A model generated the notes under the pieces. The model did no database searches. It saw only the letters and a program-made list of their open reading frames with translations, and was not told where the DNA came from. Below, piece by piece: positions 14,639 to 32,772 of a stretch of DNA of 32,772 nt. Position 1 is the stretch's first letter. Every line of letters begins with the position of its first letter. The stretch is taken from contig DYLF01000012.1 of the NCBI GenBank assembly GCA_020722205.1, forward strand, positions 1-32,772, written 5' to 3'. The stretch comes from Desulfobacca acetoxidans. Lineage in GTDB: Bacteria > Desulfobacterota > Desulfobaccia > Desulfobaccales > 0-14-0-80-60-11. Made by a program: the position numbers and the translations under genes.

Positions 14639-14663
14639 ATAGAAGGAGGAGAGGAAAAGAGTT

Positions 14664-15212: not shown

Positions 15213-15213
15213 T

Positions 15214-15489: not shown

Positions 15490-15574
15490 GATCTATATAA
15501 ATCACCCATTACTTGGCTGAATGAACGATTAAATCCTGAATGCCGTGGAAAAAAGGTAACTTAGGGGACAGGCC

Positions 15575-15829: not shown

Positions 15830-15864
15830 ACTGCAATTAGCTAAAAGTGTTGGGGAAGACAATC

Positions 15865-16092: not shown

Positions 16093-16124
16093 AGATAAGC
16101 AAAGACAAGCGAAGGTGAGGAGTA

Positions 16125-16526
16125 ATGTCTTACTGCACTGTCGAGGATATCCTGGTGATGATCCCGGAAAGTGAATTGGCGGAATTGACTGCGGAGTCAG
16201 GGGACGAGCCTGACCTCGAGGTGGTGGCAGAGGCCATCGGCAAAGCTGAGGCGGAAATTGATGCCTATCTGGGGACGGTTTACAATGTTCCCCTTTCCTC
16301 CCCCTCTTTGTTGATCAAATCTCTGTCTGTGGACTTGGCCCTTTATCATCTCTATGGACGGCGCAGTGTGGCGCCTGCGGTGCGCCGCCAGCGATATGAG
16401 GCTGCCTTGGCTTTGTTAAGGGCAGTGGCGGAAGGAAAGGCGGCGGTGCCAGGCGCAGAGGTGCCAGGTCCTATGACTACCAGCGCCAGTCGCCTTTTTT
16501 CCCGGGAGAGTCTCTCTGACTGGTAG
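16125..16526 (+). CDS. Head completion protein, Mu gp36-like (DUF1320)
   Basis: This 133-aa protein has the DUF1320 pattern: YCTVEDILVMIPESELAELT at the N-terminus, then the helix pair VVAEAIGKAEAEIDAYLGTV, then VPLSSPSLLIKSLSVDLALY and RRQRYEAALALLRAVAEGKA. Proteins of this family join the head to the tail via the portal ring. Start ATG 16125 follows GGTGAGGAG. The next gene (gp37-like) follows after 18 nt, the same order as in Mu. Confidence 0.82.
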   Translation: MSYCTVEDILVMIPESELAELTAESGDEPDLEVVAEAIGKAEAEIDAYLGTVYNVPLSSPSLLIKSLSVDLALYHLYGRRSVAPAVRRQRYEAALALLRAVAEGKAAVPGAEVPGPMTTSASRLFSRESLSDW

Positions 16527-16544
16527 GGCCAAAAGGGGGAAGAA

Positions 16545-16985
16545 GTGAGCAACTATACCTGGGGTGAGGTGGAAGATGCGGTGCTGGCGGCGTTGGCGGT
16601 GCAAATAGGGCATGAGGTCGGAACGCTCAGAACTTACCAAGGAAACTGGCAAGAAGACCTCAGACGGCAGGCCTGGCGGCTGCCGGCCGTGTTGGTCATA
16701 GTCAGGGGAGGCACTGCGACCCAGGTGACCAAGAGTTCTTATGACCTCAAGGTTGAGATTCTGATTCTGGTAGCAGACCGACAATGGCGCGGGGAAGAGG
16801 CCGCCCGGCGGGAAGAAGGGGGAGTTTACCATTTGTTAGCGGAGATTAGGGCGGCCTTATGGCATAAGGATCTGGGATTGGAAATTTTACCTTTGCAGCT
16901 GAGGAGGGAAGAGCCATTGTTGGCCAGTAAAGAGTTGGTGGTTATGGGAGCACAATATCACACCGCCATGGTTCTGGATTTTTAA
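16545..16985 (+). CDS. Mu gp37-like protein (DUF1834), tail terminator/neck component
   Basis: This 146-aa alpha/beta protein has EVEDAVLAALAVQIGHEVGT near the N-terminus, LPAVLVIVRGGTATQVTKSS in the middle, DLKVEILILVAD and a C-terminal GAQYHTAMVLDF. This matches the DUF1834 layout in Mu-like phages, placed right after DUF1320. Members are thought to cap the tail or link it to the neck. The start is GTG 16545 after AGGGGGAAGAA. Its stop is followed directly by a dispersed repeat. Confidence 0.75.
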   Translation: MSNYTWGEVEDAVLAALAVQIGHEVGTLRTYQGNWQEDLRRQAWRLPAVLVIVRGGTATQVTKSSYDLKVEILILVADRQWRGEEAARREEGGVYHLLAEIRAALWHKDLGLEILPLQLRREEPLLASKELVVMGAQYHTAMVLDF

Positions 16986-16986
16986 T

Positions 16987-17084
16987 TGGTTTTGGGTCCC
17001 CGGTTCTTGGTTCTGGGCCGAGAACCAAAAACCATTAATCGAGGTTCTAGGCCGAGAACCCAAAAGCCAAAACCCAGAACCCAG
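16987..17084. repeat. Dispersed GGTTCTGGG/CCCAGAACC repeat, longest copy
   Basis: About 100 nt built of GGTTCT, CGAGAACC, CCAAAACCCAGAACCC units in both orientations. Fragments such as CCGGTTCTTGGTTCTGGGCC and GCCGAGAACCC are complementary and can form nested hairpins. It falls between the gp37-like gene and the tail tube gene, and the reading frame of the tube gene stays open through it, which can mislead start prediction. Confidence 0.6.
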
Positions 17085-17099
17085 GTGAGGAAAAAGGGC

Positions 17100-18395
17100 G
17101 TGAGCAGGTCGATGCGAAGTTTTTTGGCGACTCATAACGTGCTGGCAGTGTCGGCTCGTCAAAGAGAGACAGCCTTGAATGTGGAACAAGAGTTAGATAC
17201 GAGCATGCTGGTGGATCTGAACAGCGTGTTACAGTATCGGGCCCTCAAGTCACCCAATCGGGAGGAGATGACTGGCAGGGAGGAGGCGGACCGCCTGGAC
17301 GATTTGGGGGGTGTGGTGTCGGGGACTTTAAGTTTTTCCCGGGCCCAGCCCCAGCACTTTGCCTTTTTATTGGCGTACGCCTTGGGGGAGGTGGAAACCA
17401 GCGCCTTGGGCGGTGGTGGCTTTCGCCACAGCATCCGTCCGTTGGCCGGCGAAGTGGATGTGGGCCGGTCCAATCCTTCCTTTACTGCGGCCATGCGTTT
17501 CGGGCGACAGGTAATGAAAAGGCGGTTCGCCTCCTGCTTCATTGATCAGATCCGGGTGGAATTACCCAAAAATGGCTGGGCCAAAATCCATGGGGTGATC
17601 AAAGGCACCGGCAAAGTTGCGGACAACACCTGGGTGGCGGAGCTGTCGGCGCCCTTTAATACGGACACCTTGACCCTTTCCGGCTACGGGGTGGAAGGTA
17701 GCCAGGCTTCTGAGAGATTAAGCAATGTCCAGGCCGTCCAGGTCAAGAATCCGATGTCGGGGGCCTGGGAGGAAGTCAACTACAGCGCGGTAGCGGCAGG
17801 GGTGCCGGCCCTGATTACCATTGACCCGCCAGGAGGTAGCGGGGAGATGACGAGCTATCGGGTTTATTTTATTCCGGTGGAAAGTGGCTGGATGACCATG
17901 CCTTCAAAAGTATCCGAGCCGCCGCTTTTGGTCAGTGAGATCCAGGTGAACCTAGGTGGCCGTTGGGACGGCGCCGCCTTCCTGGGCGGCCACCTCTTAA
18001 GTGCGGAATTGCACAGCTTAAATTGGATTTTCCGCAACCACCTGATCCTGGAAACCACCCCGGGAGGGGGGACGGGCTATGCCAACCGGGCCTTTCGCAC
18101 CGGCCGGGAACAAAAATTGGAGATGGACCGCGATTTTCGCGATTTTTTAATGGCCCGGCATCTCACCGACAACGACACGTTGGCTTTGTACATCAGGGCG
18201 CAAGGGCCGGAGTTCGCCCCAGGCTGTAACTACCAGCTAGAACTCGTCTTCCCACGGCTGGCGGTGACGGCGGCGCCCATAAAGATCGGGCAACGCCGTC
18301 TGGCCGAAGAAATCAGCCTCACGGTGTTGGAAGATGAAGAATATGGCTCAGTATTAGCCTATGTTCAGAATCAGGTGAGCAGCTACGCGGCATAG
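17100..18395 (+). CDS. Putative major tail tube protein (non-contractile tail type)
   Basis: This 431-aa protein starts SRSMRSFLATHNVLAVSARQ, then NVEQELDTSMLVDLNSVLQY, then GGVVSGTLSFSRAQPQHFAF and LAYALGEVETSALGGGGFRH, followed by long beta-rich parts such as TDTLTLSGYGVEGSQ. This matches large tail tube proteins of siphovirus type, in which a hand-like domain polymerises into the tube and an extra beta domain decorates it. I set the start at GTG 17100, with AGGTGAGG 9 nt upstream; the open frame back to 16986 translates only the dispersed repeat. No sheath gene is next to it, so a non-contractile tail is inferred. Exact family not confirmed. Confidence 0.65.
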   Translation: MSRSMRSFLATHNVLAVSARQRETALNVEQELDTSMLVDLNSVLQYRALKSPNREEMTGREEADRLDDLGGVVSGTLSFSRAQPQHFAFLLAYALGEVETSALGGGGFRHSIRPLAGEVDVGRSNPSFTAAMRFGRQVMKRRFASCFIDQIRVELPKNGWAKIHGVIKGTGKVADNTWVAELSAPFNTDTLTLSGYGVEGSQASERLSNVQAVQVKNPMSGAWEEVNYSAVAAGVPALITIDPPGGSGEMTSYRVYFIPVESGWMTMPSKVSEPPLLVSEIQVNLGGRWDGAAFLGGHLLSAELHSLNWIFRNHLILETTPGGGTGYANRAFRTGREQKLEMDRDFRDFLMARHLTDNDTLALYIRAQGPEFAPGCNYQLELVFPRLAVTAAPIKIGQRRLAEEISLTVLEDEEYGSVLAYVQNQVSSYAA

Positions 18396-18410
18396 ACAAG
18401 GGAAAATGAT

Positions 18411-18794
18411 ATGGCAAGGATGATAGGGGAGAGTCAGCAAGTGTTGGCGGTGCATGATCCGGTGTCGGGGTCAGTGATCCGTTTGCATTTCCGGGTTCCC
18501 ACCTCCGAGGAGCGGGTGGCTTATCAGGTTTCGGCATACCGGCTGGAGGGGGGGGAAAGGCGGTTCTGCCTGGGAGAAACCAGACTCAGGTTTGGGGCCG
18601 AGATTCTCGTGGGTTTTGGGGCGGGGGACATTTTGCTCACCGAGAACGGGTGCCTGACCCCTCTGGATCCGAGCCGGCATCCGGATTGGAAAGCCAAATT
18701 GGTAGAGCAGGCCCCGGATTTAGTGTCCTATCTGGCCCAGCAAGTGTTTGAAGGCTGGCGGGTAGTAGGGCGAGGAGAACAGGAATGGGGCTGA
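18411..18794 (+). CDS. Putative tail assembly chaperone, first frame (gpG-like by position)
   Basis: This 127-aa protein begins with a beta segment (VLAVHDPVSGSVIRLHFRVP) and a helix TSEERVAYQVSAYRL, and ends with helical DLVSYLAQQVFEGWRVVG. It sits between tail tube and tape measure, exactly where tailed phages keep the chaperone pair that coats the tape measure. It overlaps the next gene by 10 nt in the -1 frame, reminiscent of G/GT frameshift pairs, but I see no classical slippery heptamer. Role is inferred from position, size and frame. Confidence 0.5.
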   Translation: MARMIGESQQVLAVHDPVSGSVIRLHFRVPTSEERVAYQVSAYRLEGGERRFCLGETRLRFGAEILVGFGAGDILLTENGCLTPLDPSRHPDWKAKLVEQAPDLVSYLAQQVFEGWRVVGRGEQEWG

Positions 18795-19123
18795 CGGAAG
18801 ACCCAGGGGTGAGTCCTTTATGCTCTGGCTTGGGAAAATGGCCCTTCAGAGAGGAGGTCTTACGCCTTGTGACCGGTAAAGTCTGCACACCGGAGGTTCG
18901 GGCCAGATGCCGGCGGGAAAATGGCGAGTTTGCAGATTGGGCTTGTGGGGAGTGCACGGAATTTCTCCAACCGGAGTCAATATCGCCGTGGACCTGGCAT
19001 CTGCTGATGCTTTTTCGGTTAAAAAAAGCCGGTTACCCCTTCAGGGCCAATGACCTAAGCCTGGAGACCTGGCTGCTCCTGGGTGAAATGGAGGCGGCTC
19101 TCATAAAGGGGGGACGTTGTTGA
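18785..19123 (+). CDS. Putative tail assembly protein, second frame (gpT-like by position)
   Basis: This 112-aa protein starts at ATG 18785 inside the previous gene, with GAGGAG (18772-18777) at usable spacing, so it can be translated independently. It has a small cysteine set (CTPEVRARC, ACGEC) and helical parts (WTWHLLMLFRLKKAGYPF, LETWLLLGEMEAALI). Its last residues (KGGRC) and the stop codon come from the palindromic repeat at 19110-19164, so the native C-terminus was probably changed when the repeat arrived. It may be a tail chaperone; the cysteines could bind a metal. Confidence 0.5.
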   Translation: MGLTEDPGVSPLCSGLGKWPFREEVLRLVTGKVCTPEVRARCRRENGEFADWACGECTEFLQPESISPWTWHLLMLFRLKKAGYPFRANDLSLETWLLLGEMEAALIKGGRC

Positions 19124-19164
19124 ATTATTGACATTCTAAAGAATGTCAATGATACAACGTCCCC
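19110..19164. repeat. Palindromic element, copy 2
   Basis: Left arm GGGGACGTTGTTGAATTATT... (19110-19137) and right arm (19140-19164) pair over 11 outer and 10 inner bp with an unequal internal loop (7 versus 4 nt). Outer GGGGACGTTGT/ACAACGTCCCC and inner TTGACATTCT match copy 1 at 14573-14638, which shows one family. It supplies the stop of the upstream gene and lies 20 nt before the tape-measure start. Confidence 0.8.
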
Positions 19165-19183
19165 ATAATAAATAAGGAGAAAA

Positions 19184-19936
19184 ATGGCAAGGATACTAGG
19201 ACAGAGTGGGGACAAAAAAATCGCTGAGTTTCAGGACCTGCAGAGCGAGATGGTGCAACTCAGCCAGGAGTATAGCCGGGAGCGTCTGGCGATCTGGTCC
19301 AGGGAAATGGAAGAGATGGCTGAAAGCTGGGGGCGCTTCCAGCGCGGCTGGGAGGACACCTTAAATCACATGGGCGAGAGAGCTATTGGTACTTTTGAGT
19401 TGATTGCGGGCAGTTGGGAGGATGCCGGTCATCTCTTGAGTCAAAGTTGGAAAAGGAACTTGACAGAGATGACGGAAGAGCTAGCTAGTTGGGCTGAAGC
19501 GGTGCAGAAGGTGCTGAGGGAGGTGAACCAGGCCTGGGGCGGGTTTGATGGACAGGGGGATGGAGGTGGTTGGTCCTCTTGGCTGGGGCTCGGTTTGGAC
19601 TTCGGTGGGTGGTTTCACCAGGGAGGAGTGGTGGAGGCCCACCAGGGCATGGTGGTGGGGCCGGAAAGGTTGCTGGGGGAAGAACAACTTGTCATGGTCC
19701 AGACTGGGGAAGGCATTTTGCCACGAGACAGCATGCTCCGGTTGGGGAATGATAATTTTGAAGCCTTGCGCCGGGGCCAGTTCGATTTTAACAGCGGCGC
19801 CAAAGAATCTTCAGTGCATATCAACATAACTGTCCAGACCTTGGATGCCTCCGGGGTGGCAAATCTGGACTGGTCACGCCTGATGAACCGACAACTCTTG
19901 CCGGCCCTGCAAAAGGAACTGGGACGGCGCTGGTAA
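19184..19936 (+). CDS. Very short tail tape-measure protein
   Basis: The C-terminal block WFHQGGVVEAHQGMVVGPER, LLGEEQLVMVQTGEGILPRD and LGNDNFEALRRGQF (143-200) is the characteristic end of many siphovirus tape-measure proteins. The N-terminal about 115 residues form charged helices (EYSRERLAIWSREMEEMAES). A Gly/Trp-rich hinge (118-146) lies between. Typical tape measures run from 600 to several thousand residues; this is 250 aa, close to that of the Rhodobacter gene transfer agent (about 220 aa). By the usual length rule it would set a tail of only a few tens of nm. The start ATG 19184 follows AAGGAGA. The gene is not broken by frameshift: the end is intact and the start has its own ribosome-binding site. 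Confidence 0.75.
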   Translation: MARILGQSGDKKIAEFQDLQSEMVQLSQEYSRERLAIWSREMEEMAESWGRFQRGWEDTLNHMGERAIGTFELIAGSWEDAGHLLSQSWKRNLTEMTEELASWAEAVQKVLREVNQAWGGFDGQGDGGGWSSWLGLGLDFGGWFHQGGVVEAHQGMVVGPERLLGEEQLVMVQTGEGILPRDSMLRLGNDNFEALRRGQFDFNSGAKESSVHINITVQTLDASGVANLDWSRLMNRQLLPALQKELGRRW

Positions 19937-19946
19937 GGGGGGGATT

Positions 19947-20312
19947 ATGGCCAATGCCAAGTTGGAGTGGGTGGCGCCAGGGGGAGGGCGCCAGAGCTAC
20001 ATCCTGCCCGTTAATTTTTCCTGGGATTATCAGGAACTGCTGGAAGATAACAGTGACTGGCAGCGGGCGCTGGACGGCAGCCTGAGAAGTTATGTTCAGA
20101 AGCTGAAGGCCTGTTGGACTTTAAAATTTAAATATATAGCTACCGCCCAAAAGGAGCAACTGACAGCCCTTAAACAGGCGCAAGTGGAGGTCGATTTTTT
20201 CCGGGAGGCATCAGGGCCCAAGACATTTACTGCGGTCTGGAGCAACGATCTGGATTTTCGGGAAGTGGCACCGGGGCTTTGGTCTGGGACAATGGTGCTG
20301 GTGGAAGTTTAA
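19947..20312 (+). CDS. Putative distal tail protein
   Basis: This 121-aa beta-rich protein has LPVNFSWDYQELLEDNSDWQ, RALDGSLRSYVQKLKACWTL, then KFKYIATAQKEQLTALKQAQ and a C-terminal WSGTMVLVEV. The plan (short strands, a helix with KEQL, then a final barrel strand) resembles the N-terminal ring part of distal tail proteins that cap the tube end. It lies 10 nt after the tape measure and before the hub, as expected. The start is ATG 19947 after AAGGGGGGG. Family not confirmed. Confidence 0.55.
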   Translation: MANAKLEWVAPGGGRQSYILPVNFSWDYQELLEDNSDWQRALDGSLRSYVQKLKACWTLKFKYIATAQKEQLTALKQAQVEVDFFREASGPKTFTAVWSNDLDFREVAPGLWSGTMVLVEV

Positions 20313-20325
20313 GCCGTGCCTTTAA

Positions 20326-20390
20326 AACCTGGGTTCTGGGTTTTGGCTTTTAGGTTCTCGACCCAGAACCCAGAACCGAGAACCCGAAAC
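20326..20390. repeat. Dispersed GGTTCTGGG/CCCAGAACC repeat, copy before the hub gene
   Basis: GGGTTCTGGGTTTTGGCTTT on the left, then GGTTCTCG pairing with CGAGAACC, with CCCAGAACCCAGAA between. A run of seven T follows seven to eight nt after the hairpin, so a weak terminator role is possible. Same family as 12248-12312 and 16987-17084. Confidence 0.55.
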
Positions 20391-20408
20391 TTTTTTTAAA
20401 AATCGATC

Positions 20409-22082
20409 ATGCGTGAAGCGGGGACGGAATTTCTACAGGAAGAAACATTGCTCAGAGGGGGGCATCCCCGGCTCAAGGCGGTAATTTATCCTTTTGATTT
20501 GGACTTCGGTTTGGCTCTTGGCTCAGGAGTCTATGAGAACACAATTTATGGTGGAGAGCCGGGAAAATTAGCCATGCAAGAGGGATATATCACCCAAGGG
20601 GCCTGGACTTCGCCGGTGATGCAGGCCTTCTCTCCTCAGGTAGGAGCAGCGGTGCCCACCTGGGAAGATCAGGCGGGATATCTTACGACCCGGGTGTATC
20701 TGAGGAGTGCGACAGAGCATGAGGAAGTGGCGGCACAGCCCTTTGCCGAGGCGTCCTTATCTGAGGAAATGGCGCTCAACCTGTATTTCCAAGTAAAAAT
20801 AGAATTCCAGGAGGAAATTCGCGCTTGGGCGGTGGATGATGCCTCTGAGGCGGATGACTATACCGCTTACGGGGAGGAGAGCAACAGCGTGGCTGGTTAT
20901 GAGAGCTATGCCGTAGAAGGGGCCTTTCCAGGTTTTGTGACCCGGGTTCGTTGGGAAGGAAGGCTGGTCCTGCCGGATAACGAGATTCTTGATGCCGGAG
21001 TCATCCAAGTAGGGTTGTCCCGCGATTTTAAGGAAATGCGAAGCGGAGACAATATCCTGGTGTTGGACAATCGTCGGCGCCAATGGCTACCGCAATCTTC
21101 AAACTTTTATTTTCTCGGGTGGCCTTGGGAAGAAAAAAGGTTAGCCCTGTACCACGGTTGGGAACTCCCCAATGGAACCGTGGAGTGGCTGCTGGTGTAT
21201 CAGGGAGTCTTGGAACGTTTAGGGGGCATGGCCGACGGCTGGCAGGAACGCCGCCAAGTCAGGCTGGAAACCCAGGATTGGCTAGCCTCCCGTCTCCAAA
21301 GGTTAGTGGGCACGCCGGGGCCGGACGGTGTCAGGCGACCCTTTCTGCGGGGGTCAACCCGTTGCCAGGGAGAGTTATACCAGACCATTGGTGCCCAGGT
21401 CAGTGACCCGATAAAGTCTGGCAGCGGCAGCGCCACCCTGAAAATATTAGGCAACTTTAGAGGGGAAACCCCCATGACCTATCTGCTCGAAGCCGAGAAC
21501 ACGGGGGAAATAGGGGTGGCTACTTTCCGTTGGTCAATCAACCAGGGGCAGAGCTGGCTGGGGAGGGAAATTATCACCGCCGGCGCCGAGGATCCGGTGG
21601 AGCTTTCGGAAGGACTGGCGGTGTACTGGGAGGGGGGGACGGGCATTGATCTGGTGGCACAAGACCGCTGGACCTTCCTCGCTCAACCGGTGAGCTATCA
21701 CTATAAATTGTTCGGTGGCCCTTTCGCCGGCATAACCAACATTTATCTCAATGGCGAGGAAACCACTGACGGTGTAACGGCAGATCCAGCCACCGGGCTG
21801 ATCCAGGTTACCGGCCGGAGCGCCATCGTTTCGGCACGGGTGGTCAAAGACGACACCAACCATCCGGTGGATATCATCAGGGATCTTCTCCAGGAAGTGG
21901 GATTGAGCCAGGCGATTAATCAGGAGTCCTTTGAATTAGCTAAAAGCCTGACCCCGGAATATAGCATCGGAGTCTGCTTCGAAGACTTGACGGCGGCCCA
22001 AGCGATACGTGAAATCGTTAGCCGCTGTCTCTACGACCTGTGGGTGGATTTTGGGGAAATCAAGATAAGGGCTTCGCTTTAG
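20409..22082 (+). CDS. Tail hub/baseplate protein
   Basis: This 557-aa protein divides as follows. Residues 1-180 are beta-rich with YLTTRVYLRSATEHEEVAAQ. About 180-300 resemble a hub domain (VIQVGLSRDFKEMRSGDNIL, VEWLLVYQGVLERL, RRQVRLETQDWLASRL). About 336-427 are an inserted beta domain (SGSGSATLKILGNF ... FRWSINQGQSW ... WTFLAQP) that recurs in the next gene. The end (480-557) has HPVDIIRDLLQEVGLSQAIN and AIREIVSRCLYDLWVDFGEI, typical of hub proteins such as J-type ones. It would sit at the tail tip and hold the receptor-binding proteins. The start ATG 20409 has a poor ribosome-binding site. It is followed by the 1384-aa protein after 13 nt, whose C-terminus looks like the missing rest of a hub. 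Confidence 0.6.
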   Translation: MREAGTEFLQEETLLRGGHPRLKAVIYPFDLDFGLALGSGVYENTIYGGEPGKLAMQEGYITQGAWTSPVMQAFSPQVGAAVPTWEDQAGYLTTRVYLRSATEHEEVAAQPFAEASLSEEMALNLYFQVKIEFQEEIRAWAVDDASEADDYTAYGEESNSVAGYESYAVEGAFPGFVTRVRWEGRLVLPDNEILDAGVIQVGLSRDFKEMRSGDNILVLDNRRRQWLPQSSNFYFLGWPWEEKRLALYHGWELPNGTVEWLLVYQGVLERLGGMADGWQERRQVRLETQDWLASRLQRLVGTPGPDGVRRPFLRGSTRCQGELYQTIGAQVSDPIKSGSGSATLKILGNFRGETPMTYLLEAENTGEIGVATFRWSINQGQSWLGREIITAGAEDPVELSEGLAVYWEGGTGIDLVAQDRWTFLAQPVSYHYKLFGGPFAGITNIYLNGEETTDGVTADPATGLIQVTGRSAIVSARVVKDDTNHPVDIIRDLLQEVGLSQAINQESFELAKSLTPEYSIGVCFEDLTAAQAIREIVSRCLYDLWVDFGEIKIRASL

Positions 22083-22095
22083 GGGAAATTTTTGA

Positions 22096-25000
22096 ATGGC
22101 GCGCATACAATGGGCCAAAGCCTCGCAGTTTAACTGGGTGTTTGACAATATGGGCGGGGTGCCGCTTATGGCGGCGGTGGCCGGGGTCTTTGGCAATGCT
22201 GTAACTATGGTACAACCCGAGGGTCAGGTCCAAATTCAGACTCCCCTGCCGGGAGGGGGCCGGGTTTACCTGGTACGGGGAGTCTGGCGCTCTGAGGTGC
22301 AGTTCCCCTGGGATGGGTTCTGGGCCGAACCCATAGAGGGGGAGCTGACCAATTACTATACAGGCGGCTTCTTTGTGAACCGGGGGATGGTGACGACCCT
22401 CACCCTGGGCCAGCCGTTGCCAGCCGGGACGCCGGTTCAGATATATTATCTCTATTTTACGGGGGAAAAATCCAGCAAGTACGAAGCCTTGAATAATTAT
22501 CCCTGCATCCGCCGAGCTTACCGGTCAAGAGAAGATTACACTTATGATTTTGCGGTGGACCGGCTTTTGGACCTGATGGTTTATCTGTATGAGGCCGAAG
22601 GTGAATGCGACCGGGATTTTCGGCCCCTGCGGGATTTTCTTTGGGAGGCTTTCTGTTGCCGTGAGCATAGCCTCACCCCTCCCTTGATATATGATTCGTT
22701 TGACAGGGTCTTCTGGGACCGGGGTTCTTTTCTCTTGTACCGGGGGGCCACTGCGGGAAGCGAGGCGTTCAAGGTCTTTCAGACGGAACTGGCCACAGGT
22801 GTTAAAGGCAGAGTGTTGCATGTCAGGGCGGACCTGCCTACCCGCCAGGATAGCGCCTGGTGCGGCTATGGTCTTAACTGGTCATTGGAGGACAGCCCTT
22901 TTTCTTCGCTGGCTCGGGTCTTCTTCAGTGTTAAAGGCCAAGCAGGATGCCGCCGGCTCCACAACCTCCTGAAGATAGGTAGCGGCAGCGCCAATCTGGT
23001 CCTGGCGGGGGATTTTGACCACCAGGAGAAGACCCGCTTTGTCGTGCAGATCGAAACCAGCGGCGAAGTGGGTGAGGCTGCCTGCCGCTGGTCCAAGGAT
23101 GGCGGTTTGACCTGGCAGGAAACCGGCGTTCTCACCGGGGATGCACAACACCCTGTGACCCTGTGGGGAGGGGTGAGCATATATTGGGAAAAGGGGGACG
23201 GACTCGATCTGGTGGCAGGGGATTACTGGACTTTTTGGGCCGGAGAGCCGGCCGAACACCCCCGGCGCCTGCTGGTGACGCTCAACGATTCAGCTCAGGG
23301 CGAGCCTGACCCCTGGGGTCCCCAGCATACTTATGTCCATGCTTTGCCTGACCGCGAGACTCAGCTGACCGCCTTTGAGGTACCGTTCAGCCAGTTCTGG
23401 CGGCGTGACAATATCATTGATGACGCAGACCGGGTGCGCGGCGAATGGGGTTGTTGGTACTCGGCCAGCCAAGTAGACGGTTGCGACCTCACCATTAGTG
23501 ATCGGGAAGTAACCGAGGTTATCGAGGGTGACACATTTTATACCCAACGGCAAGTTATCTGGAATCTGTCGCCTTTTGCCACCGCCTTTGGGGTTTGGGT
23601 GGGGGTGTCACCTTCTAGGACTGATTCCACCGACCATGTCAACCTCAATTTTCTCCTTAAACCTTTGGTGTCGGGGGCCAATAACTTACTTCTGCGGATC
23701 AAGGTGAAAGACGCCCGGGGAAGTTATTTTTATCAGGACCAGATGGTAACGGTGAACAGCTGGCAACGGGTGGTCGCACCTTTTGCGAGCATGGCTTTGG
23801 AATCAGGTGCAGAACCCCTGACCCACCCCATTCAGGCAGTGGATTTAGGCATCCCTGCCAACCCGCCAAGCAACGGTACGTTTCTGATCACCGATCTCAA
23901 GTTTGATGAGCACCTCACCTTCACCGGGGCGAAGCGCCTGCGAGTGTTAGAGTTCAAGATGGAGCAGCAGGGGATGAGGGACCATGAATGGTGGCTGGAT
24001 GAGGTGGGTCTTGGACCTATGGAGGCCACAGACCCTTATCCCATGGCGCCGCGGCTGGCCGTCTCTCTGGGTCCTTACGGCCAAAACCCTTGGCGAGGCC
24101 CCACTCTAGTCCACTACGCCCACCCCCTTGCACCTTACCTGGTAGGAGCAATAAATCTGAGTCAGATTTATGTCAAGCTGCACCGGGACGCGCAAGACCA
24201 ATATCATCAACGCTATGGGGGAGTGAAAGGGCCTATTCTCCCGGTGCACACCAGGAATGATATTGAAAACATCGCCTTATGTGGTGAGGAAAATTTTGGC
24301 CGGTTCTGTTGGTGGGGGCGGGTCCGACATTATGGCAAGCTGGTGGCCGCTTGGCGGTTCAACGGCGATTTGGTGGATGAGATTGGCACAACTCCCTTAT
24401 CTTGGTCAGGGACGCCGACCTATACCTCTGGCATCTGTCAGCCGGGTGACACCGCAATCAGCCTGGATGGGACAAAATATTGTTATTGTGCTCACCATGA
24501 CAAATTTCGGTTAAAGGACAACGATTTTACTTTTGAAATGGTGGTGAAATTCAACAACCTGACACCCGCCCAAGACTGCTTGGCGGGATTCTGGGATGTT
24601 TCCGGCAATAACCGTAGCTGGTCTTTATGGCGGTATTACAGCGGCTTGGGTTTCCGATATTCCACTAACGGCTCAGATGTCATTTATTTATACGATTACG
24701 TTGGCCCCTTATCTACCGGCACCTGGTATCACCTGGCATTTGTCAGGGATGGAACTGATCTGCATTTTTATATTAACGGCGAGCTGTTCACCACCTTAAA
24801 TATTGGCACGACTTATATCTATGACGCCACCAGCCAATTGCGCTTAGGCTCCTGGGGGCCTGGAACTTGGCAATTAAACGGCGACATTGACTACTTTTCC
24901 CTGATAAACGGCTATGCCATGAGTGCTCTTGAGGTGGCTGACCGTTGGCAGATTATCCAGGGCCAACTTAATGGCTCTGCTTACCCGGAAGCGGGCCATG

Positions 25001-26250
25001 CCTTGGGGCAATATTGGGCCTTCCTGCGTTTGGCGCAATATTATTTTCATACCAATGGGACGGAAGCCTGGGAGATATTGGAGCACTGGCTGCACTGGAT
25101 TGACACCTTTGGGGTGGCTGACGGTCAGGGGTGGAAATTCCCCACTTACTTTTCTGAATATGGCTTTGGCTACGGGGATTATGACCCAGGGGCAGCGGCT
25201 TCTTTAGCTATCGGTTGTCTCTATATCTATCTCAGGAACGGCAATGAAACAGCCGGCCTCTGGGCTCGGCGGATTTTGGACGACCTGCGACTCAACCGGC
25301 AAAGCCGGGATTATGGTGGCGGCTACAAAAGCGATTATCATTACGCCTGGCTCAATGCCCTGGTAGCTCAGGCCTTTGCCTTGGCGGTGGCACCGCTCCG
25401 TGGACAGGCCTTTCCCTTCCCCCACCATTCTTTCGACGCCGATCATTATCAAGCCCTTATGTCCTGGATGTTCACCCACTCCGGAGACGTCAAGCCCAAT
25501 CTGCTTAACCGCGATCTCATCCCCTTCACCTATCTGGAAGCACAGGATGTTTGGGATTATGCCCCTCATTACGTCTTTATGTCGGGCATGGGGTCTCTCG
25601 AGGCTGTCGTGTTGATGCTCGGAGCGGCCCTGGGCTATGGCAAAGTTGCCGGAGACTGGACTTGGTTTGACCGCTTGCTGCGTTTCCTGCTGCTGGACAA
25701 TCTGGTGAGGTTGCACCCCCAAAACATCAGCTCGCTGCACGCCGCCTACGACCTGGCGGGGGTCAAAAACCTGATCCGGATGAAATACGCCGACTATGAC
25801 CAGGATAATTCCAGATTTGTGGAAATCCGGGATGAGGCTGCCATCACTGCCTGGGGGGAGGCGCCCCTTGTGGTGGATTGCCGCTATGGTGGCCCTGTAG
25901 TCGTAGAAAACCCGGAAACGGCAAACCTGCTGGCGACACGCCTCCTAAAACGGCTCCGCACCCCTTGGGAGACCCTGGATCTCACTACTTGGCTGGAAGG
26001 CGCCCGGATAGAGATAGGAGATACGGTGGCGGTGTCAGCAGATTTTCATGGCTTGGCGGAAGAGGAATTCACGGTCTTTGGCAAAACCTTGGACTTAAAG
26101 CGTCGGCAGGTGCATCTTAACTTGGCTCGTCCCTTGGATTGTTCCTGGGCTTGGGCGGTAGAGACGGCGGGAAGTAGTTACGACAGTTTCGCCATTGATC
26201 AGCCCAGTCAGTATGATGCAAATTGGAGTTTTAAAGCCTTGGCCGGATAG
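22096..26250 (+). CDS. Giant multidomain tail-tip protein with lectin-like and hydrolase-like domains
   Basis: A 1384-aa protein. Residues 1-190: phage tail N-terminal part. About 294-384: beta domain shared with the preceding hub (IGSGSANLVLAGDF, CRWSKDGGLTWQ, DYWTFWAGEP). About 430-615: beta-sandwich resembling a carbohydrate-binding module (WQRVVAPFASMAL, GTFLITDLKFDEHL). About 748-945: LamG/concanavalin-like jellyroll (LVAAWRFNGDLVDE, FTFEMVVKFNN, TGTWYHLAFVRDG, LRLGSW). About 965-1235: all-helical region rich in Trp/Tyr/His (GQYWAFLRLAQYYF, YGFGYGDYDPGAAASLAIG, HYAWLNALVAQAFALAV) resembling an alpha/alpha-toroid sugar-active enzyme. About 1260-1345: hub-type ending (NLLATRLLKRLRTP, ARIEIGDTVAV). 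It likely binds and perhaps trims surface polysaccharide. Catalytic residues cannot be assigned by eye. The start ATG 22096 follows AGGGGAAA. Confidence 0.65.
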   Translation: MARIQWAKASQFNWVFDNMGGVPLMAAVAGVFGNAVTMVQPEGQVQIQTPLPGGGRVYLVRGVWRSEVQFPWDGFWAEPIEGELTNYYTGGFFVNRGMVTTLTLGQPLPAGTPVQIYYLYFTGEKSSKYEALNNYPCIRRAYRSREDYTYDFAVDRLLDLMVYLYEAEGECDRDFRPLRDFLWEAFCCREHSLTPPLIYDSFDRVFWDRGSFLLYRGATAGSEAFKVFQTELATGVKGRVLHVRADLPTRQDSAWCGYGLNWSLEDSPFSSLARVFFSVKGQAGCRRLHNLLKIGSGSANLVLAGDFDHQEKTRFVVQIETSGEVGEAACRWSKDGGLTWQETGVLTGDAQHPVTLWGGVSIYWEKGDGLDLVAGDYWTFWAGEPAEHPRRLLVTLNDSAQGEPDPWGPQHTYVHALPDRETQLTAFEVPFSQFWRRDNIIDDADRVRGEWGCWYSASQVDGCDLTISDREVTEVIEGDTFYTQRQVIWNLSPFATAFGVWVGVSPSRTDSTDHVNLNFLLKPLVSGANNLLLRIKVKDARGSYFYQDQMVTVNSWQRVVAPFASMALESGAEPLTHPIQAVDLGIPANPPSNGTFLITDLKFDEHLTFTGAKRLRVLEFKMEQQGMRDHEWWLDEVGLGPMEATDPYPMAPRLAVSLGPYGQNPWRGPTLVHYAHPLAPYLVGAINLSQIYVKLHRDAQDQYHQRYGGVKGPILPVHTRNDIENIALCGEENFGRFCWWGRVRHYGKLVAAWRFNGDLVDEIGTTPLSWSGTPTYTSGICQPGDTAISLDGTKYCYCAHHDKFRLKDNDFTFEMVVKFNNLTPAQDCLAGFWDVSGNNRSWSLWRYYSGLGFRYSTNGSDVIYLYDYVGPLSTGTWYHLAFVRDGTDLHFYINGELFTTLNIGTTYIYDATSQLRLGSWGPGTWQLNGDIDYFSLINGYAMSALEVADRWQIIQGQLNGSAYPEAGHALGQYWAFLRLAQYYFHTNGTEAWEILEHWLHWIDTFGVADGQGWKFPTYFSEYGFGYGDYDPGAAASLAIGCLYIYLRNGNETAGLWARRILDDLRLNRQSRDYGGGYKSDYHYAWLNALVAQAFALAVAPLRGQAFPFPHHSFDADHYQALMSWMFTHSGDVKPNLLNRDLIPFTYLEAQDVWDYAPHYVFMSGMGSLEAVVLMLGAALGYGKVAGDWTWFDRLLRFLLLDNLVRLHPQNISSLHAAYDLAGVKNLIRMKYADYDQDNSRFVEIRDEAAITAWGEAPLVVDCRYGGPVVVENPETANLLATRLLKRLRTPWETLDLTTWLEGARIEIGDTVAVSADFHGLAEEEFTVFGKTLDLKRRQVHLNLARPLDCSWAWAVETAGSSYDSFAIDQPSQYDANWSFKALAG

Positions 26251-26328
26251 CTCAGAACACAGAATTAAATTAACAGTAAGCAATGACCAGCCAAAAAATT
26301 TGGGCAAAAATAGCAAACGGAGGAAGAT

Positions 26329-27384
26329 ATGGCATTGATCAATCTGCCGCAGGCCAAGTGGGGCAGCGGCACGGGCAGACAAGTAATCTTAAAAAGTGAT
26401 TTTAACACCATCGAGCAGGCGGTGGTGGAAAGTTTTGCCCTCGGGGGGACGCCGGCTCTGGAATATGTCAATGGCACCACGATACAGGTAAATGCCACCC
26501 CTGATTGCAAGGCTCGGGTGATGCTGTGCGGCTTTCCCTCCCCCCTGCACCGCGGCTTATGGATCGATAGCGGCTTAAGTGATGGACGCTACCGGGAGAA
26601 CGCCACTTGTGTCACCCTTGACTTGGCCGTTACGGGCAGTCTCTGGGGTACTATTAAGGCCAGCCAGTGGTATGTCGTCTATGCACTGGCCGGGTCAGCG
26701 GACACCACCTTCAGTCTCAAAGCCATGCCGCTGATGCGGGTTTCCTCCCAGAGCACACAAATCATTACTCTCCGCAACAATGGCAACAGTGCCAATATCG
26801 GCTATGGCTTCGCCACCAATGAACTGGTGGGGGCCAAAATCTTGGTGCTCACCGGTACCTCCCGCGGCTTGGCCCGCCAGATTACAGCCAACAATAATGA
26901 CAACGCCGAAGGCGGCACCATAACCTATGGCGGCAGCGCCCTGACCCTGAGTCAAGGCGATTGGTTTGTAGTCCTCCCCCAGACCAACTTTCGCTATTTG
27001 GGAGCGGTGTTCAATGACTCCGCGGGGGAGGTATCGCCCTTCTACCAGGACGGCCCGCTCTTTACCTTTCGGACCCCTCGTGAGCTGACTTCCGGGGCCA
27101 TCAACGGCTACACTCTTTATGATCTCTGGTCGGTGGCGCCGCCCACAGCTCGTGTCTTGAGAGGCTTTGCCTCCGCCACCAACGGTTATGACCTGAAACT
27201 GGCCTTGTCCCTGGACGGCGTCAACCCAACCCTTATCCTGCATGGGGCCCCGCCCTCCGGTGATTTTGCGGGTGGGCGCGGAGCCATCCCTTTCAACTCC
27301 CGGGTTCTGGCCCATCATGCCATCTATCTTAATAACGAAAACACGGCCAATCAGGTCATCAGAGTGACAGGCTGGGAGGAGTAA
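26329..27384 (+). CDS. Putative tail tip/fibre protein
   Basis: This 351-aa, Gly/Thr/Asn-rich beta protein begins ALINLPQAKWGSGTGRQVIL and has repeated short strands such as AKILVLTGTSRGLARQITAN and TITYGGSALTLSQGDWFVVL, with C-terminal AHHAIYLNNENTANQVIRVT. A strong GGAGGAAG precedes ATG 26329. As the last gene of the morphogenesis cluster, after the large tip protein, it is probably a receptor-binding or tip-capping component. I do not recognise a family. Confidence 0.6.
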   Translation: MALINLPQAKWGSGTGRQVILKSDFNTIEQAVVESFALGGTPALEYVNGTTIQVNATPDCKARVMLCGFPSPLHRGLWIDSGLSDGRYRENATCVTLDLAVTGSLWGTIKASQWYVVYALAGSADTTFSLKAMPLMRVSSQSTQIITLRNNGNSANIGYGFATNELVGAKILVLTGTSRGLARQITANNNDNAEGGTITYGGSALTLSQGDWFVVLPQTNFRYLGAVFNDSAGEVSPFYQDGPLFTFRTPRELTSGAINGYTLYDLWSVAPPTARVLRGFASATNGYDLKLALSLDGVNPTLILHGAPPSGDFAGGRGAIPFNSRVLAHHAIYLNNENTANQVIRVTGWEE

Positions 27385-27507: not shown

Positions 27508-27653
27508 AATCTTAGTGGATAATTTCACAAAAGCAGGCTCTTTATATACTTTTAACAACATTTGCGCAGGCGCCAAGATAAGTGCAAAGAATTATTGTGA
27601 GGGGTGTGAGCCTACAAGACTTGCCTTGCAAATCTCTGGAAAGGAAATACCTC

Positions 27654-30600
27654 ATGACACAGTCAAAGAATGAAAAAGTCGGAGCTGTTTTGGTAGTGGG
27701 CGGTGGCATTGCTGGTGTTGAGGCCTCTCTGGACCTGGCTAACGCCGGATTCTACGTGCACTTGGTGGAAAAGAAATCGGCCATTGGCGGAGTCTTGGTT
27801 CAACTTGACAAAAGCTACCCCACCAATGAACCCGCCATGTGCGTGATCTGCATGATGTCCCCCAACCTCATGGAATGTGGGCGCAATAAAGCCGGAGGCG
27901 GGCTGGACTATGAGATTACGGACTGCGGCTGCCATAAAAACATTGAAATTCATACCCTGGCGGAAGTGAAAAATCTGAGCGGTGAGCCTGGCAACTTCAC
28001 GGTCACCATAGAGAAAGCACCGCGCTTCGTCGATCCCCTCAAGTGTATTTCCTGTGGTGCCTGCACCGAGGTCTGCCCCATCAGCATCCCAGATGAGTTC
28101 AATCTCGGGATGAAAAAAACCAAGGCCATTTCCTTGCCCTATGCCCGAGCCATTCCGCCCACCTATGTGCTTCATAAACAGCCGGAGTGCGACGACTGCC
28201 GGAAGTGTGTGGAGATCTGTGAACCTGGAGCCGTCAACCTGGGAATGAAACCTGAGACCATAACCCTTAATGTGGGGGCTGTCGTGGCGGCACCGGGTTT
28301 TCAGGTTTACGATCCGTCCAAATATGACGGCTACCATTATCCCGCTCATCCCAATGTACTGACCAGCCTGGAATTTGAGCGTATGCTGTCGGAGGGGGGG
28401 CCCTCTGGTGGGCGTTTGCTGCGGCCCTCCGACCAACAAGAGCCCAAAAAGATCGCCTGGCTTCAGTGCGTGGGCTCCCGGGACACACACCACTGCAATA
28501 ACAGCTATTGTTCCGATATCTGTTGCATGTACGCCATCAAGCAGGCGCTGGTCGCCAAGGAGCACGCCAGCAGTCCCCTGGACACCGCCATCTTTTTCAT
28601 GGACATGCGCACCCAAGGCAAAAATTACGAACGATATTTCCAGCGGGCCAAGCGGGAAAAAGGGGTGCGCTTCATCCGCTCCCGGGTGCACGGCATTGAC
28701 ACGGTGCCCGGCACGGACACCCTGGTTCTTCGCTACCTCACAAAGCAAGGGGAGCTGAAAATTGAAGAATTCGACCTCGTGGTCCTCTCGGTGGGTGTGG
28801 AAACCTCTGCTGACGGTCTGCAATTGGCCAAGACCCTGGGGGTGGAGGTCGATCCGGAGACCCGCTTCGCCGTGACTTCGCCGTTTACGCCAGTGTGCAC
28901 CAGTAAACCGGGTGTTTTCGTGTGCGGTGTTTTTCAGGGTCCCAAGGACATTCCCCGCTCCACCACAGAGGCTTCCGCCGCGGCGGCGGCAGTGGGTGAA
29001 TTGCTGGCCCCGGCCCGGGGCACGGCTTTGCAGGTAAGAGATCTGCCGCCGGAAAGTGACGTCTCCGGGCAGGAACCCCGGGTGGGTGTATTTTTCTGCA
29101 GCTGTGGGGACAGCATGACGGGGGTTATAGACGTCAAGGATCTTTCGGCCTCCGTCTCTTCTTATCCTGGGGTGGCTTATAGCGCCCAAATTGCTGTTGC
29201 CTGTACTGGCGACGCCCAGAGAGACATTCTGCAAGCCATTAAAGATTATCACCTCAATCGAGTGGTGGTGGCCGCCTGCACTCCACGTATTTTGGGGCCC
29301 TACCTCCGGCAGACCATCAAGCAAGCAGGATTAAATCCCTATCTGTTCGAGATGGCCAATATCCGGGATCAGGCTGCCTGGGTGCACAAGGAGGAGCCGG
29401 ATAAAGCCCTGGCCAAGGCCAAGGCCATGGTCAGGGGGGCCGTGGCTCGGGTGGCCAGATTGGAACCTCTCCAGAAAATGAGCTTCCCCATGACCAAGAG
29501 CGCCTTGGTGGTGGGGGGCGGCGTCGCCGGCCTGGAGGCGGCCTGTTCCATCGCCGATATGGGCTTTCAGGCCTATCTGGTGGAAAAGACTGACCAGCTG
29601 GGCGGCCAGGCCCGGAACCTGGTGGTCAGTTCCCGGGGATATGATTACCAGGGCTATCTTAAACGCTTGATTAATAAGGTTGAGAACCACCCTCGCATCG
29701 AACTCCTGCTCAACTCCACTATAGTTGGCACCAGCGGAATTCTCGGCAATTTTAACACCACTGTCCAAACTCCCCAGGGCGAGCGCCTGGTGAACCATGG
29801 GGTGGGCATTATGGCATGTGGCGGCCGACCTTTCCAACCGAAGGAATACCTCTACGGCCAAAGAGACGATGTTTTCACCCTTTTTGAACTCGACAAGCTT
29901 ATTGCCGATAAAAATCCCAAGGTTACCGGTGCCCAGCAGGCAGTGTTCATTCAGTGCGTGGGCTCCAGGGAGCCGGAGCGGCCTTACTGCAGCCGTTTAT
30001 GCTGCACGCATTCGGTGGAGAGCGCCCTCGCTCTGAAAGAACTGAATCCCGAACTGGAGGTGATTGTCCTCTACCGGAATATCCGGACTTATGGGGACAA
30101 GGAACTGCTTTTCAAAAAAGCTCGGGAAATGGGAGTAATATTCATCCGCTTCGACCTGGACTGCAAACCCCGGGTGGAAACGGGGAGCGACGGTAAATTA
30201 CAAGTGACCGTCACCGATCCCATCTTGGGGCGGCCGGTGGTCTTGACCCCTGACCTGCTGACCTTGGCTAGCGCAGTGTTGCCCACCGGCACAAGGGAGA
30301 TGGCGGAGATCTTTGACCTGGAGGTTGACCTCGACGGCTTCTTCCAGGAATCCCACCCCAAACGGCGCCCAGTGGATGCTTTTCGGGAAGGCTTTTTCCT
30401 GGCTGGCTTGGCAAACTCGCCCAAACCGCTGGATGAATCCATCGCCGAGGCCAAGGCCGCGGCGGGCCGGGCCGCCACCTACCTGGCCCAGGAGAGCGTC
30501 CAACTCAGCGGTGTGGTGGCTGTGGTGGACCAGGACAAATGTGCGGTCTGTCTCACCTGTGTGCGCACCTGTCCCTTCGGCGTGCCCGTCATCGATTACC

Positions 30601-30743
30601 AAGTCGATGCGGCTTACATCGATCCAGTCACCTGCCAGGGGTGCGGTGTCTGCGTCTCAGAGTGCCCCGGCAAGGCCATCCAACTGCAAAACTTCACCGA
30701 TGCCCAGATCATCGCCCAGGAATTAGCCTTGGCGGCCGGTTAA
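27654..30743 (+). CDS. hdrA: Heterodisulfide reductase subunit A, tandem (two FAD modules)
   Basis: A soluble flavin-based bifurcating iron-sulfur flavoprotein. Module 1 (1-460): FAD fold GGGIAG (16-21), PTNEPAMCVICMMSP in the HdrA-specific Cys region, and two 4Fe-4S sites CISCGACTEVCP (131-142) and CDDCRKCVEICEPG (179-192). Module 2 (475-950): HdrA N-terminal domain VGVFFCSCGDSM, AACTPRILGPYLRQ, YLFEMANIRDQAAWVHKE, then GGGVAG (621-626). The end has two more clusters, CAVCLTCVRTCP (963) and CQGCGVCVSECP (994). At 1029 aa it exceeds the archaeal single-module HdrA (about 650 aa). The ATG at 27654 has AAAGGAAA upstream; the longer open frame to 27582 has no support. It should pair with the MvhD, HdrC and HdrB encoded next. 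Module 2 lacks the Cys region. Confidence 0.92.
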   Translation: MTQSKNEKVGAVLVVGGGIAGVEASLDLANAGFYVHLVEKKSAIGGVLVQLDKSYPTNEPAMCVICMMSPNLMECGRNKAGGGLDYEITDCGCHKNIEIHTLAEVKNLSGEPGNFTVTIEKAPRFVDPLKCISCGACTEVCPISIPDEFNLGMKKTKAISLPYARAIPPTYVLHKQPECDDCRKCVEICEPGAVNLGMKPETITLNVGAVVAAPGFQVYDPSKYDGYHYPAHPNVLTSLEFERMLSEGGPSGGRLLRPSDQQEPKKIAWLQCVGSRDTHHCNNSYCSDICCMYAIKQALVAKEHASSPLDTAIFFMDMRTQGKNYERYFQRAKREKGVRFIRSRVHGIDTVPGTDTLVLRYLTKQGELKIEEFDLVVLSVGVETSADGLQLAKTLGVEVDPETRFAVTSPFTPVCTSKPGVFVCGVFQGPKDIPRSTTEASAAAAAVGELLAPARGTALQVRDLPPESDVSGQEPRVGVFFCSCGDSMTGVIDVKDLSASVSSYPGVAYSAQIAVACTGDAQRDILQAIKDYHLNRVVVAACTPRILGPYLRQTIKQAGLNPYLFEMANIRDQAAWVHKEEPDKALAKAKAMVRGAVARVARLEPLQKMSFPMTKSALVVGGGVAGLEAACSIADMGFQAYLVEKTDQLGGQARNLVVSSRGYDYQGYLKRLINKVENHPRIELLLNSTIVGTSGILGNFNTTVQTPQGERLVNHGVGIMACGGRPFQPKEYLYGQRDDVFTLFELDKLIADKNPKVTGAQQAVFIQCVGSREPERPYCSRLCCTHSVESALALKELNPELEVIVLYRNIRTYGDKELLFKKAREMGVIFIRFDLDCKPRVETGSDGKLQVTVTDPILGRPVVLTPDLLTLASAVLPTGTREMAEIFDLEVDLDGFFQESHPKRRPVDAFREGFFLAGLANSPKPLDESIAEAKAAAGRAATYLAQESVQLSGVVAVVDQDKCAVCLTCVRTCPFGVPVIDYQVDAAYIDPVTCQGCGVCVSECPGKAIQLQNFTDAQIIAQELALAAG

Positions 30744-30756
30744 CACTAGGAGAACT

Positions 30757-31218
30757 ATGGCCACCCCTTTTATTCCCAAAATCATCTGTTTTTGTTGTCG
30801 CTACTGAGGTTACACAGCGGCGGACCTGGCAGGTTCGATGCGGCTGCCATATCCCCCGGAGATCAAAATAATCATGGTACCCTGTACCGGCCGAGTGGAC
30901 ACCCTCCACCTACTCAAGGCCTTTGAGGGCGGAGCTGATGCGGTGATGGTGGTGGGTTGTTTGGAGGGTGACTGCCATTACCTCACCGGCAATATCCGAG
31001 CCAAAAAGCGGGTCAACAGGTTAAAGGAAGATTTCGTCCGGATGGGCTTCGAGGCGGCACGCCTGGAGATGTTTAACCTGTCTTCTTCCGACGGACCAAA
31101 GTTTGCGGCCATCGCCATGGAAATGAGCGAGCGGGTCTATAAACTGGGGCCCAACAAGGTGAAAAGAGAGGCCCAGGAGGTTTGGCAGAAACAACAAGCC
31201 GCCGCTAGCCCTGCCTAG
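30757..31218 (+). CDS. mvhD: MvhD-like [2Fe-2S] electron-transfer subunit, predicted selenoprotein (TGA = Sec17)
   Basis: MvhD carries electrons from a hydrogenase or formate dehydrogenase to HdrA. The product is 153 aa if the TGA at 30805-30807 is read as selenocysteine: it starts ATPFIPKIICFCCRY, then U17, then GYTAADLAG. Family members have FCCNWC-[ST]-Y-x-GAD here, so U17 falls exactly on the conserved cysteine. Later ligands are present: C43 (VPCTGRVD), C68 and C73 (VVGCLEGDCHYLTGN). A good AGGAG sits 4 nt before ATG 30757, 14 nt after the hdrA stop. Reading the TGA as stop would leave a 16-residue peptide and an N-terminally truncated ORF without its cluster motif. A selenoprotein VhuD is known in methanogens, a family precedent. 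Confidence 0.85.
30808..30846 (+). promoter_or_regulatory. Candidate bacterial SECIS stem-loop
   Basis: Fourteen nt after the TGA, GGACCT-GGC-AGGTTC (30822-30836) forms a 6-bp hairpin (one G-T) with a GG-starting loop; CAGC (30815-30818) and GCTG (30843-30846) can close an outer stem. Distance and GG in the apical loop fit bacterial SECIS elements bound by SelB. Bacterial SECIS sequences vary widely, so this supports but does not prove Sec insertion. Confidence 0.6.
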
Positions 31219-31370
31219 CAAGAAACCAAGATTTTTGATATAATTTAAGGAGGGGGCCAGGGGTTGCAAGCTTCTGCCACCTTTATCAGCAAAACAGCTC
31301 AGGTGGCTAAGGCGTGGCCAAGCTTAAGAAACTTTTGCCCCAGTCGAAATAATAATTAGGTGGTGATTGC
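31219..31370 (+). other. Structured 152-nt spacer between mvhD and hdrC
   Basis: TATAAT (31239-31244) stands alone without a good -35. AAGGAGG (31247-31253) is a strong ribosome-binding-like site with no matching long gene; a TTG at 31264 opens a 31-codon frame ending at 31359 (MQASATFISKTAQVAKAWPS...), which I do not trust. GCCACCT (31276-31282) pairs with AGGTGGC (31301-31307). The spacer may hold an internal promoter, a leader peptide or an mRNA-processing hairpin. Confidence 0.35.
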
Positions 31371-31979
31371 ATGGATAAGGTTCCCATTCTGGAGCCGTCT
31401 TTTGAACTGCCAGAACAGCTGCAGGATGCTCATTTATCCGTGTCCGCCTGCTATCAATGTCGGAAGTGCTCCAGCGGCTGTCCATTAACCTTCGCCATGG
31501 ACCTGCTGCCGGACCAGGTTATTCGTCTCTCCCTTTTGGGCCAGGAAGAGCAGGTCTTGGGGTGCACCACCATCTGGGTCTGTTCCAGTTGCGAAACCTG
31601 CACTACCCGCTGCCCTAACGGCATCGATATCGCGGGGGTCATGGACTGGCTGAAGGAAACAGCACTCAAGCGGGGTGTTGCCCTTCCCCAGCCCGCAGTC
31701 ACTCGGTTTCACCAGACATTTTTGCGCAGCGTCCGCCTGGGCGGGGGGCGCCTTCCCGAGGCGGTGTTATTGGGCCTCTATACCCTGAGAAGCGGGCAGT
31801 TCTTGAAAAAGTTATGGTCGGGAGGGCTGTTCTCCGACCTGAGCCTCGGCCGTAAATTGCGTCAACGCGGGCGGCTTCGCCTCAGCTTGCCTCATCGCCT
31901 CAAGGGGGTCAAAGAGATACGGAAAATCTTCAACGGCGCGCAGATGAAAGCTCAAGACTCCGGATCAGGAGAAAAATAG
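31371..31979 (+). CDS. hdrC: Heterodisulfide reductase subunit C
   Basis: An iron-sulfur protein linking HdrA to the HdrB active site. It has two 4Fe-4S motifs: CYQCRKCSSGCP (27-38) and CSSCETCTTRCP (71-82), with the HdrC-typical LLPDQVIRLSLLG and IWVCSSCETC. At 202 aa it is a little longer than archaeal HdrC owing to a basic C-terminal tail (LRQRGRLRLSLPHRLKGVKE). The start ATG 31371 follows AGGTGGTGA. No membrane helices are present, so this is the soluble HdrABC type and not HdrDE. The hdrB gene follows closely. Confidence 0.9.
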   Translation: MDKVPILEPSFELPEQLQDAHLSVSACYQCRKCSSGCPLTFAMDLLPDQVIRLSLLGQEEQVLGCTTIWVCSSCETCTTRCPNGIDIAGVMDWLKETALKRGVALPQPAVTRFHQTFLRSVRLGGGRLPEAVLLGLYTLRSGQFLKKLWSGGLFSDLSLGRKLRQRGRLRLSLPHRLKGVKEIRKIFNGAQMKAQDSGSGEK

Positions 31980-32014: not shown

Positions 32015-32772
32015 ATGAAAGTTTCTTACTATCCTGGTTGTTCGTTGGAAGGCACTGCCAATGATTACGCCGCCTCCATTGAGGCTGTGGCTCGCGCCCT
32101 GGATGTGGAATTGGTGGAGCTGGACGATTGGAATTGCTGTGGGGCTTCCGCCGCCCACAGCATCAATCGCCACCTGGCTCTCGACCTGCCCATGCGGAAC
32201 CTCCTCATCGCCTACCAGGCCGGACTCGATTTGGTGGTGCCTTGCGCGTTGTGTTTCAACCGCTTGAAGGTGGCGGAGAAGGCGCTCAAAGGGCCGGAAG
32301 GTCACCGCTGGCTCCAAGGCCCCCACACTCCCGTAAAGATTTGGGACCTGCTGGATTATTTTTCCCAACCCAAATTCTTGGCCACATTGCCTACCAAAAT
32401 TGTCAGGCCGCTCATTGGCCTAAAAGCCGTGGCCTATTACGGCTGTCTGGCGTCCAGGCCTCCGAGTATCACCGATAGTGCCGATTATGAAAACCCTCAG
32501 AATATGGAGAAGTTGTTGAAAGTCTTGGGCGCTACCCCTGTGGACTGGTCGTTTAAGACCGACTGTTGTGGGGCGGGTCTGGCGGTGGCCCGGCCGGATA
32601 TCATTGATTACTTGGTGCATTGCCTATATGAGCGGGCCTTAGCGGCCGGGGCGGAATGTCTGGTGGTTTCCTGTCAGATGTGCCAAGCCAATCTGGATCT
32701 CTCTCAGGAACGTATTTCCCGGAATTTCTTGAAAGAATATTATCTGCCGGTATTCTACTTTACGGAACTCAT
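32015..32772 (+). CDS. hdrB: Heterodisulfide reductase subunit B (3' end outside window)
   Basis: The catalytic subunit, with non-cubane 4Fe-4S clusters in CCG domains, that reduces a disulfide (CoM-S-S-CoB in methanogens; the bacterial substrate is unknown). First CCG domain: SYYPGCSLEG, NCCGAS, PCALCFNRL. Second: AYYGCLASRPPS, TDCCGAG, VVSCQMCQANLD. Both Cys sets are complete. ATG 32015 gives the family-typical N-terminus MKVSYYPGCSL; an in-frame GTG 31991 has a better ribosome-binding site (AGGTGG) and would add 8 residues. The gene runs off the window end near the final residues. Confidence 0.9.
   Translation, partial: MKVSYYPGCSLEGTANDYAASIEAVARALDVELVELDDWNCCGASAAHSINRHLALDLPMRNLLIAYQAGLDLVVPCALCFNRLKVAEKALKGPEGHRWLQGPHTPVKIWDLLDYFSQPKFLATLPTKIVRPLIGLKAVAYYGCLASRPPSITDSADYENPQNMEKLLKVLGATPVDWSFKTDCCGAGLAVARPDIIDYLVHCLYERALAAGAECLVVSCQMCQANLDLSQERISRNFLKEYYLPVFYFTEL

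Follow-up and report, generated by a model that had tools for sequence, protein, structure and literature searches.

A predicted selenocysteine codon and a conserved selenocysteine insertion sequence hairpin in an mvhD gene of Desulfobacca acetoxidans

We analyzed a 32,772-nucleotide stretch of Desulfobacca acetoxidans DNA (positions 1 to 32,772 of contig DYLF01000012.1, on our contig C152; hereafter the window) that carries an mvhD gene of the FlpD family with an in-frame TGA at codon 17. The assembly (GCA_020722205.1) comprises 2.64 Mb in 180 contigs and is 99.97% complete. Judging from the sequence, this codon is almost certainly one that would be decoded as selenocysteine (Sec) under the direction of a selenocysteine insertion sequence (SECIS) hairpin. 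In the proposed mechanism, UGA codon 17 of the mvhD mRNA would be read by the bacterial SelB and tRNA-Sec, and the hairpin, lying inside the coding sequence 13 nt past the UGA, would direct the recoding. A preliminary description of the window had already read the TGA as selenocysteine, and this reading is supported by the Sec machinery of the genome, the retention of the TGA in relatives, and the conservation of the SECIS. The features concerned are as follows.

30748 to 30753, plus strand: ribosome-binding site AGGAGA, read directly
30757 to 31218, plus strand: mvhD (FlpD family), a predicted selenoprotein of 153 amino acids (aa), which matches PF02662 when the TGA is read through
30805 to 30807, plus strand: TGA codon 17, the predicted selenocysteine in C-C-R-Y-U, from direct reading and homologue alignment
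30821 to 30837, plus strand: predicted bacterial SECIS hairpin CGGACCU-GGC-AGGUUCG (7-bp stem, 3-nt loop), from folding, freezing of synonymous sites, and the spacing of a 17-mer

The mvhD frame opens with an ATG at 30757, stays open past the TGA, and ends with a TAG at 31216 to 31218. The ribosome-binding site lies 3 nt before this ATG, in the 13-nt gap that follows the stop codon of the upstream hdrA gene (TAA, 30741 to 30743). The read-through protein has a full-length match to the Pfam FlpD family (PF02662) above the curated cutoff: residues 9 to 131 of 153 cover profile positions 1 to 123 of 123 (E = 3.4e-45; 153.5 bits versus a cutoff of 22.3). The match begins at residue 9, which places the conserved N-terminal motif around the TGA and ahead of it. 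The open frame on both sides of position 30805, the ribosome-binding site of the upstream ATG, and the placement of the TGA on a cysteine conserved in homologues were all proposed in the preliminary description and agree with our direct reading and alignment. Without recoding, the open reading frame begins at 30838, where standard gene callers had been expected to start the gene. If the TGA were a true stop, translation would restart at the ATG at 30838 and yield a 126-aa protein lacking the N-terminal motif. This would match standard gene calling, but it is very unlikely, as the codons of the family FCC motif before the TGA are kept in homologues, the start at 30757 has a strong ribosome-binding site, and freezing of synonymous sites past the TGA is confined to TGA-containing genes (see below). 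The gene model is corrected in this way, since automatic annotation cuts mvhD at its conserved N-terminal motif.

With the protein as query, 254 of 297 phylum genomes yielded mvhD homologues. The nine closest in this search (67 to 75% identity) each contain one TGA, always at this codon (CCRYU), and more distant homologues have a mixture of U and C at the codon 17 site (site 1). The named relatives are deltaproteobacterial metagenome-assembled genomes and isolates (Syntrophobacterales, Desulfobacca, Desulfopila, an Olavius symbiont, and others). In a separate collection of 91 genes, 79 had U at site 1 and Cys at a second site (site 2), 9 had the reverse arrangement, and 3 had Cys at both. The search patterns behind this collection excluded codon 17, and tblastn reads TGA as a stop, so retrieval was not biased toward U. 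The alignment advised in the preliminary description thus finds the codon 17 TGA kept in relatives, with either Cys or U at the site among homologues. Dozens of independent genomes carry a TGA at this very codon, which excludes chance or sequencing error. A Cys-type mvhD with a sequencing or assembly error at 30805 would be compatible with a draft assembly of 180 contigs and with the existence of Cys homologues; its probability is practically nil, as independent genomes share both the same-codon TGA and the same hairpin, and the relatives refute it in practice.

The preliminary description had named absence of the selenocysteine machinery as grounds for rejecting its reading. We found selA (604.9 bits), selB (368.8 bits), selD (373.8 bits; with an in-frame TGA of its own), and tRNA-Sec (75.4 bits; anticodon tca according to ARAGORN, i.e., tRNA-Sec[UCA]) in the same genome, so that none of its genomic grounds for rejection applies. 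Genome-wide reassignment of TGA was considered and rejected, because five other genes of the window terminate with TGA; the mvhD TGA is therefore recoded rather than reassigned throughout. A second FlpD gene of the genome (L024, G000:C131:9827-10195) has its TGA at site 2 (FAGGU-QLGECHY), so that the genome encodes both single-site kinds of Sec-MvhD. Two further FlpD-like proteins (L025 and L026, on contigs C171 and C10, respectively) lack the usual site 1 cysteines: site 1 of L025 reads CENDAY, and L026 matches the FlpD profile only from position 26.

The hairpin announced in the preliminary description is present, although it starts 13 nt past the TGA and not 14. Bacterial SECIS elements are modeled with an apical loop of 3 to 9 nt, an upper stem of 4 to 16 bp, a UGA-to-loop distance of 16 to 37 nt, and a G within the first two loop positions (PMC13188914). 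The hairpin at 30821 to 30837 agrees with this model (loop GGC of 3 nt, stem of 7 bp, loop 20 nt after the UGA). An Rfam scan of positions 30700 to 31300 gave a single chance match, far under threshold. In 21 TGA genes, synonymous-site identity at codons 22 to 27 was 0.94, compared with 0.53 elsewhere in the gene, and no other seven-codon window ranked higher. In 15 Cys genes encoding the same Ala-Gly-Ser residues, the corresponding values were 0.38 and 0.42. The helix is nearly invariant; the sole exception is one relative, L056, in which synonymous changes at codons 22 to 27 (GCT GAC CTG GCA GGC TCA) preserve the SECIS helix but shift its register.

The 17-mer GCGGACCTGGCAGGTTC was present in 98 of 395 genomes of the phylum (once in the window's own genome), and its reversed control in none. 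Among the loci inspected, 117 of 118 distinct copies stood exactly 12 nt after a TGA. We rejected the 17-mer as a generic SECIS of other selenoproteins, as the inspected copies occurred in mvhD only, bar one on an IMG/VR contig that has no TGA before it and is a chance copy. The full helix is formed by only 24 of the 4,608 synonymous codings of ADLAGS. Four of these 24 use Watson-Crick pairs save for one fixed G-U, and among the four the observed sequence alone has G as its first loop base. With a stability rank of 51, the observed hairpin falls short of the most stable one possible; its shape, rather than its stability, seems to be kept. The frozen DNA past the TGA might have another role (a protein-binding site or an internal promoter or start), with read-through not involving Sec. 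We regard this as extremely unlikely: the frozen stretch is absent from Cys homologues coding for the same residues, its distance from the TGA is fixed at 12 nt, pairing and the loop G account for every synonymous choice, and the genome has tRNA-Sec and SelB.

Some observations weigh against the decoding of codon 17 as selenocysteine. The folding energy of the hairpin has a z score of -2.0 for positions 30815 to 30843 and of -0.08 and -0.85 for longer stretches. We did not accept folding energy as establishing a SECIS, as it is not significant in longer windows; alone it is weak evidence, and conservation across relatives is decisive. The selA gene was not seen in two motif-bearing relatives, both drafts that may lack the gene (G026, 90% complete; G033, 79% complete). 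Cys forms of this protein occur commonly, and the MvhD fold therefore does not require Sec. In favor of the decoding, structure 9sfi_K of the Protein Data Bank (PDB) has nonstandard residues at exactly the site aligned with the TGA and at a second site, although these X residues are taken as Sec by inference.

The most notable by-product of this work is the degree to which the mvhD SECIS is frozen across the phylum, of which a limited literature search found no description. Nearly the same 17 bases recur at a fixed 12 nt past the UGA in more than 100 genes, which suggests, as a tentative and rather doubtful reading, that the SECIS of mvhD forms a class of its own, conserved phylum-wide in its nucleotides, unlike most bacterial SECIS elements. 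If so, the SelB of these bacteria may recognize sequence beyond the loop alone. In practical terms, TGA-N12-GCGGACCTGGCAGGTTC offers a simple DNA probe for Sec-MvhD genes in anaerobe genomes. Because one subunit exists in a Sec and a Cys form, and only the Sec form has the SECIS, the pair also provides a clean system for studying what selenium contributes to an electron-bifurcating complex.

The genes around mvhD encode subunits of the Hdr type.

27582 to 30743, plus strand: tandem HdrA-like flavoprotein, 1,053 aa as called, with two HdrA-type flavin adenine dinucleotide modules and matches to NF040770 and to HdrA structures in PDB
31371 to 31979, plus strand: hdrC-like 4Fe-4S subunit (TIGR03290, E = 2.1e-15, below the curated cutoff; Pfam Fer4_8)
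32015 to 32770, plus strand: hdrB-like subunit with cysteine-rich CCG domains (PF02754, E = 5.7e-21; L087:5516-6271)

The tandem HdrA matches NCBIfam NF040770 (HdrA2) in three stretches (E = 1.8e-263), and its halves are approximately 27 to 30% identical over 244 and 116 aa. Its true start is probably an ATG slightly inside the called open reading frame. The hdrB-like gene runs to the end of the window, where a scaffold gap follows; just downstream, beyond the gap, lies a larger HdrA that contains a GltD-like insert (L087:6380-11020). A reaction with NAD(P)H has been proposed for such inserts (PMC12054007). The window's tandem HdrA has no such insert (approximately 470 aa), and wherever the gene preceding Sec-mvhD is readable in relatives, it encodes an insert-bearing HdrA. 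Directly upstream of the hdrA-mvhD operon, positions 8004 to 27384 contain structural genes of a Mu-like prophage (portal, protease/scaffold, and gpT head protein).

HdrA, MvhD, HdrB, and HdrC, the gene content of an HdrABC-MvhD complex, are encoded together, and no Mvh hydrogenase genes were seen beside this mvhD copy. The natural reading is that the locus would encode an electron-bifurcating or -confurcating complex of the Hdr type, in which HdrA, MvhD, HdrC, and HdrB are likely to assemble together. Binding of a [2Fe-2S] cluster is known for FlpD/MvhD homologues (PMC6019823, PMC12350162). By analogy, the MvhD subunit probably carries such a cluster; Sec17 may sit at or beside it and could tune electron transfer or redox properties. 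In placing Sec at a cluster cysteine and having it alter the redox potential, the preliminary description went beyond the evidence.

The novelty implied in the preliminary description did not hold up against the literature. Sec-containing FrhD/MvhD was reported in bacteria in 2006, with eight copies and tandem hdrA genes in Syntrophobacter fumaroxidans (PMC1794560). Desulfobacterium autotrophicum has four Sec-mvhD genes (mvhD1/2/3/5; PMC2702500), and Desulfococcus multivorans has one Sec-MvhD (PMC5109826). Bacterial Sec-MvhD beside hdrA and bacterial tandem hdrA have thus been on record since 2006 (PMC1794560, PMC2702500). The motif is not new either, as a 2026 review already lists CxxU, with up to two Sec, for MvhD/VhuD of PF02662 (PMC13188914).

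The deltaproteobacterial Sec-FrhD/MvhD proteins (Syntrophobacter, Syntrophus, Desulfobacterium autotrophicum, and Desulfococcus multivorans) share with the window gene the PF02662 domain, the in-frame TGA, the SECIS within the gene, and the hdrA neighbor, and their loci also include hdrA tandems; the window organism is a different, uncharacterized member of the phylum. HdrL, or type III HdrA bearing a GltD-like insert, is found next to Sec-MvhD in the same family of bacteria and has in common with the window HdrA the flavoprotein backbone and the Sec-mvhD neighbor, but it carries the insert that the window HdrA lacks. In methanogen VhuD (the two-Sec form, apparently that of PDB 9sfi_K), the aligned CxxU residue is likewise nonstandard. 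The second Sec of VhuD is at site 2, where the window protein has Cys68 and the contig C131 paralogue has Sec. VhuD is archaeal, and archaeal SECIS elements are located in the 3' untranslated region (PMC13188914), whereas that of the window mvhD lies in the coding sequence. The selenoprotein family to which the window mvhD adds a member is well established in the phylum and in methanogens.
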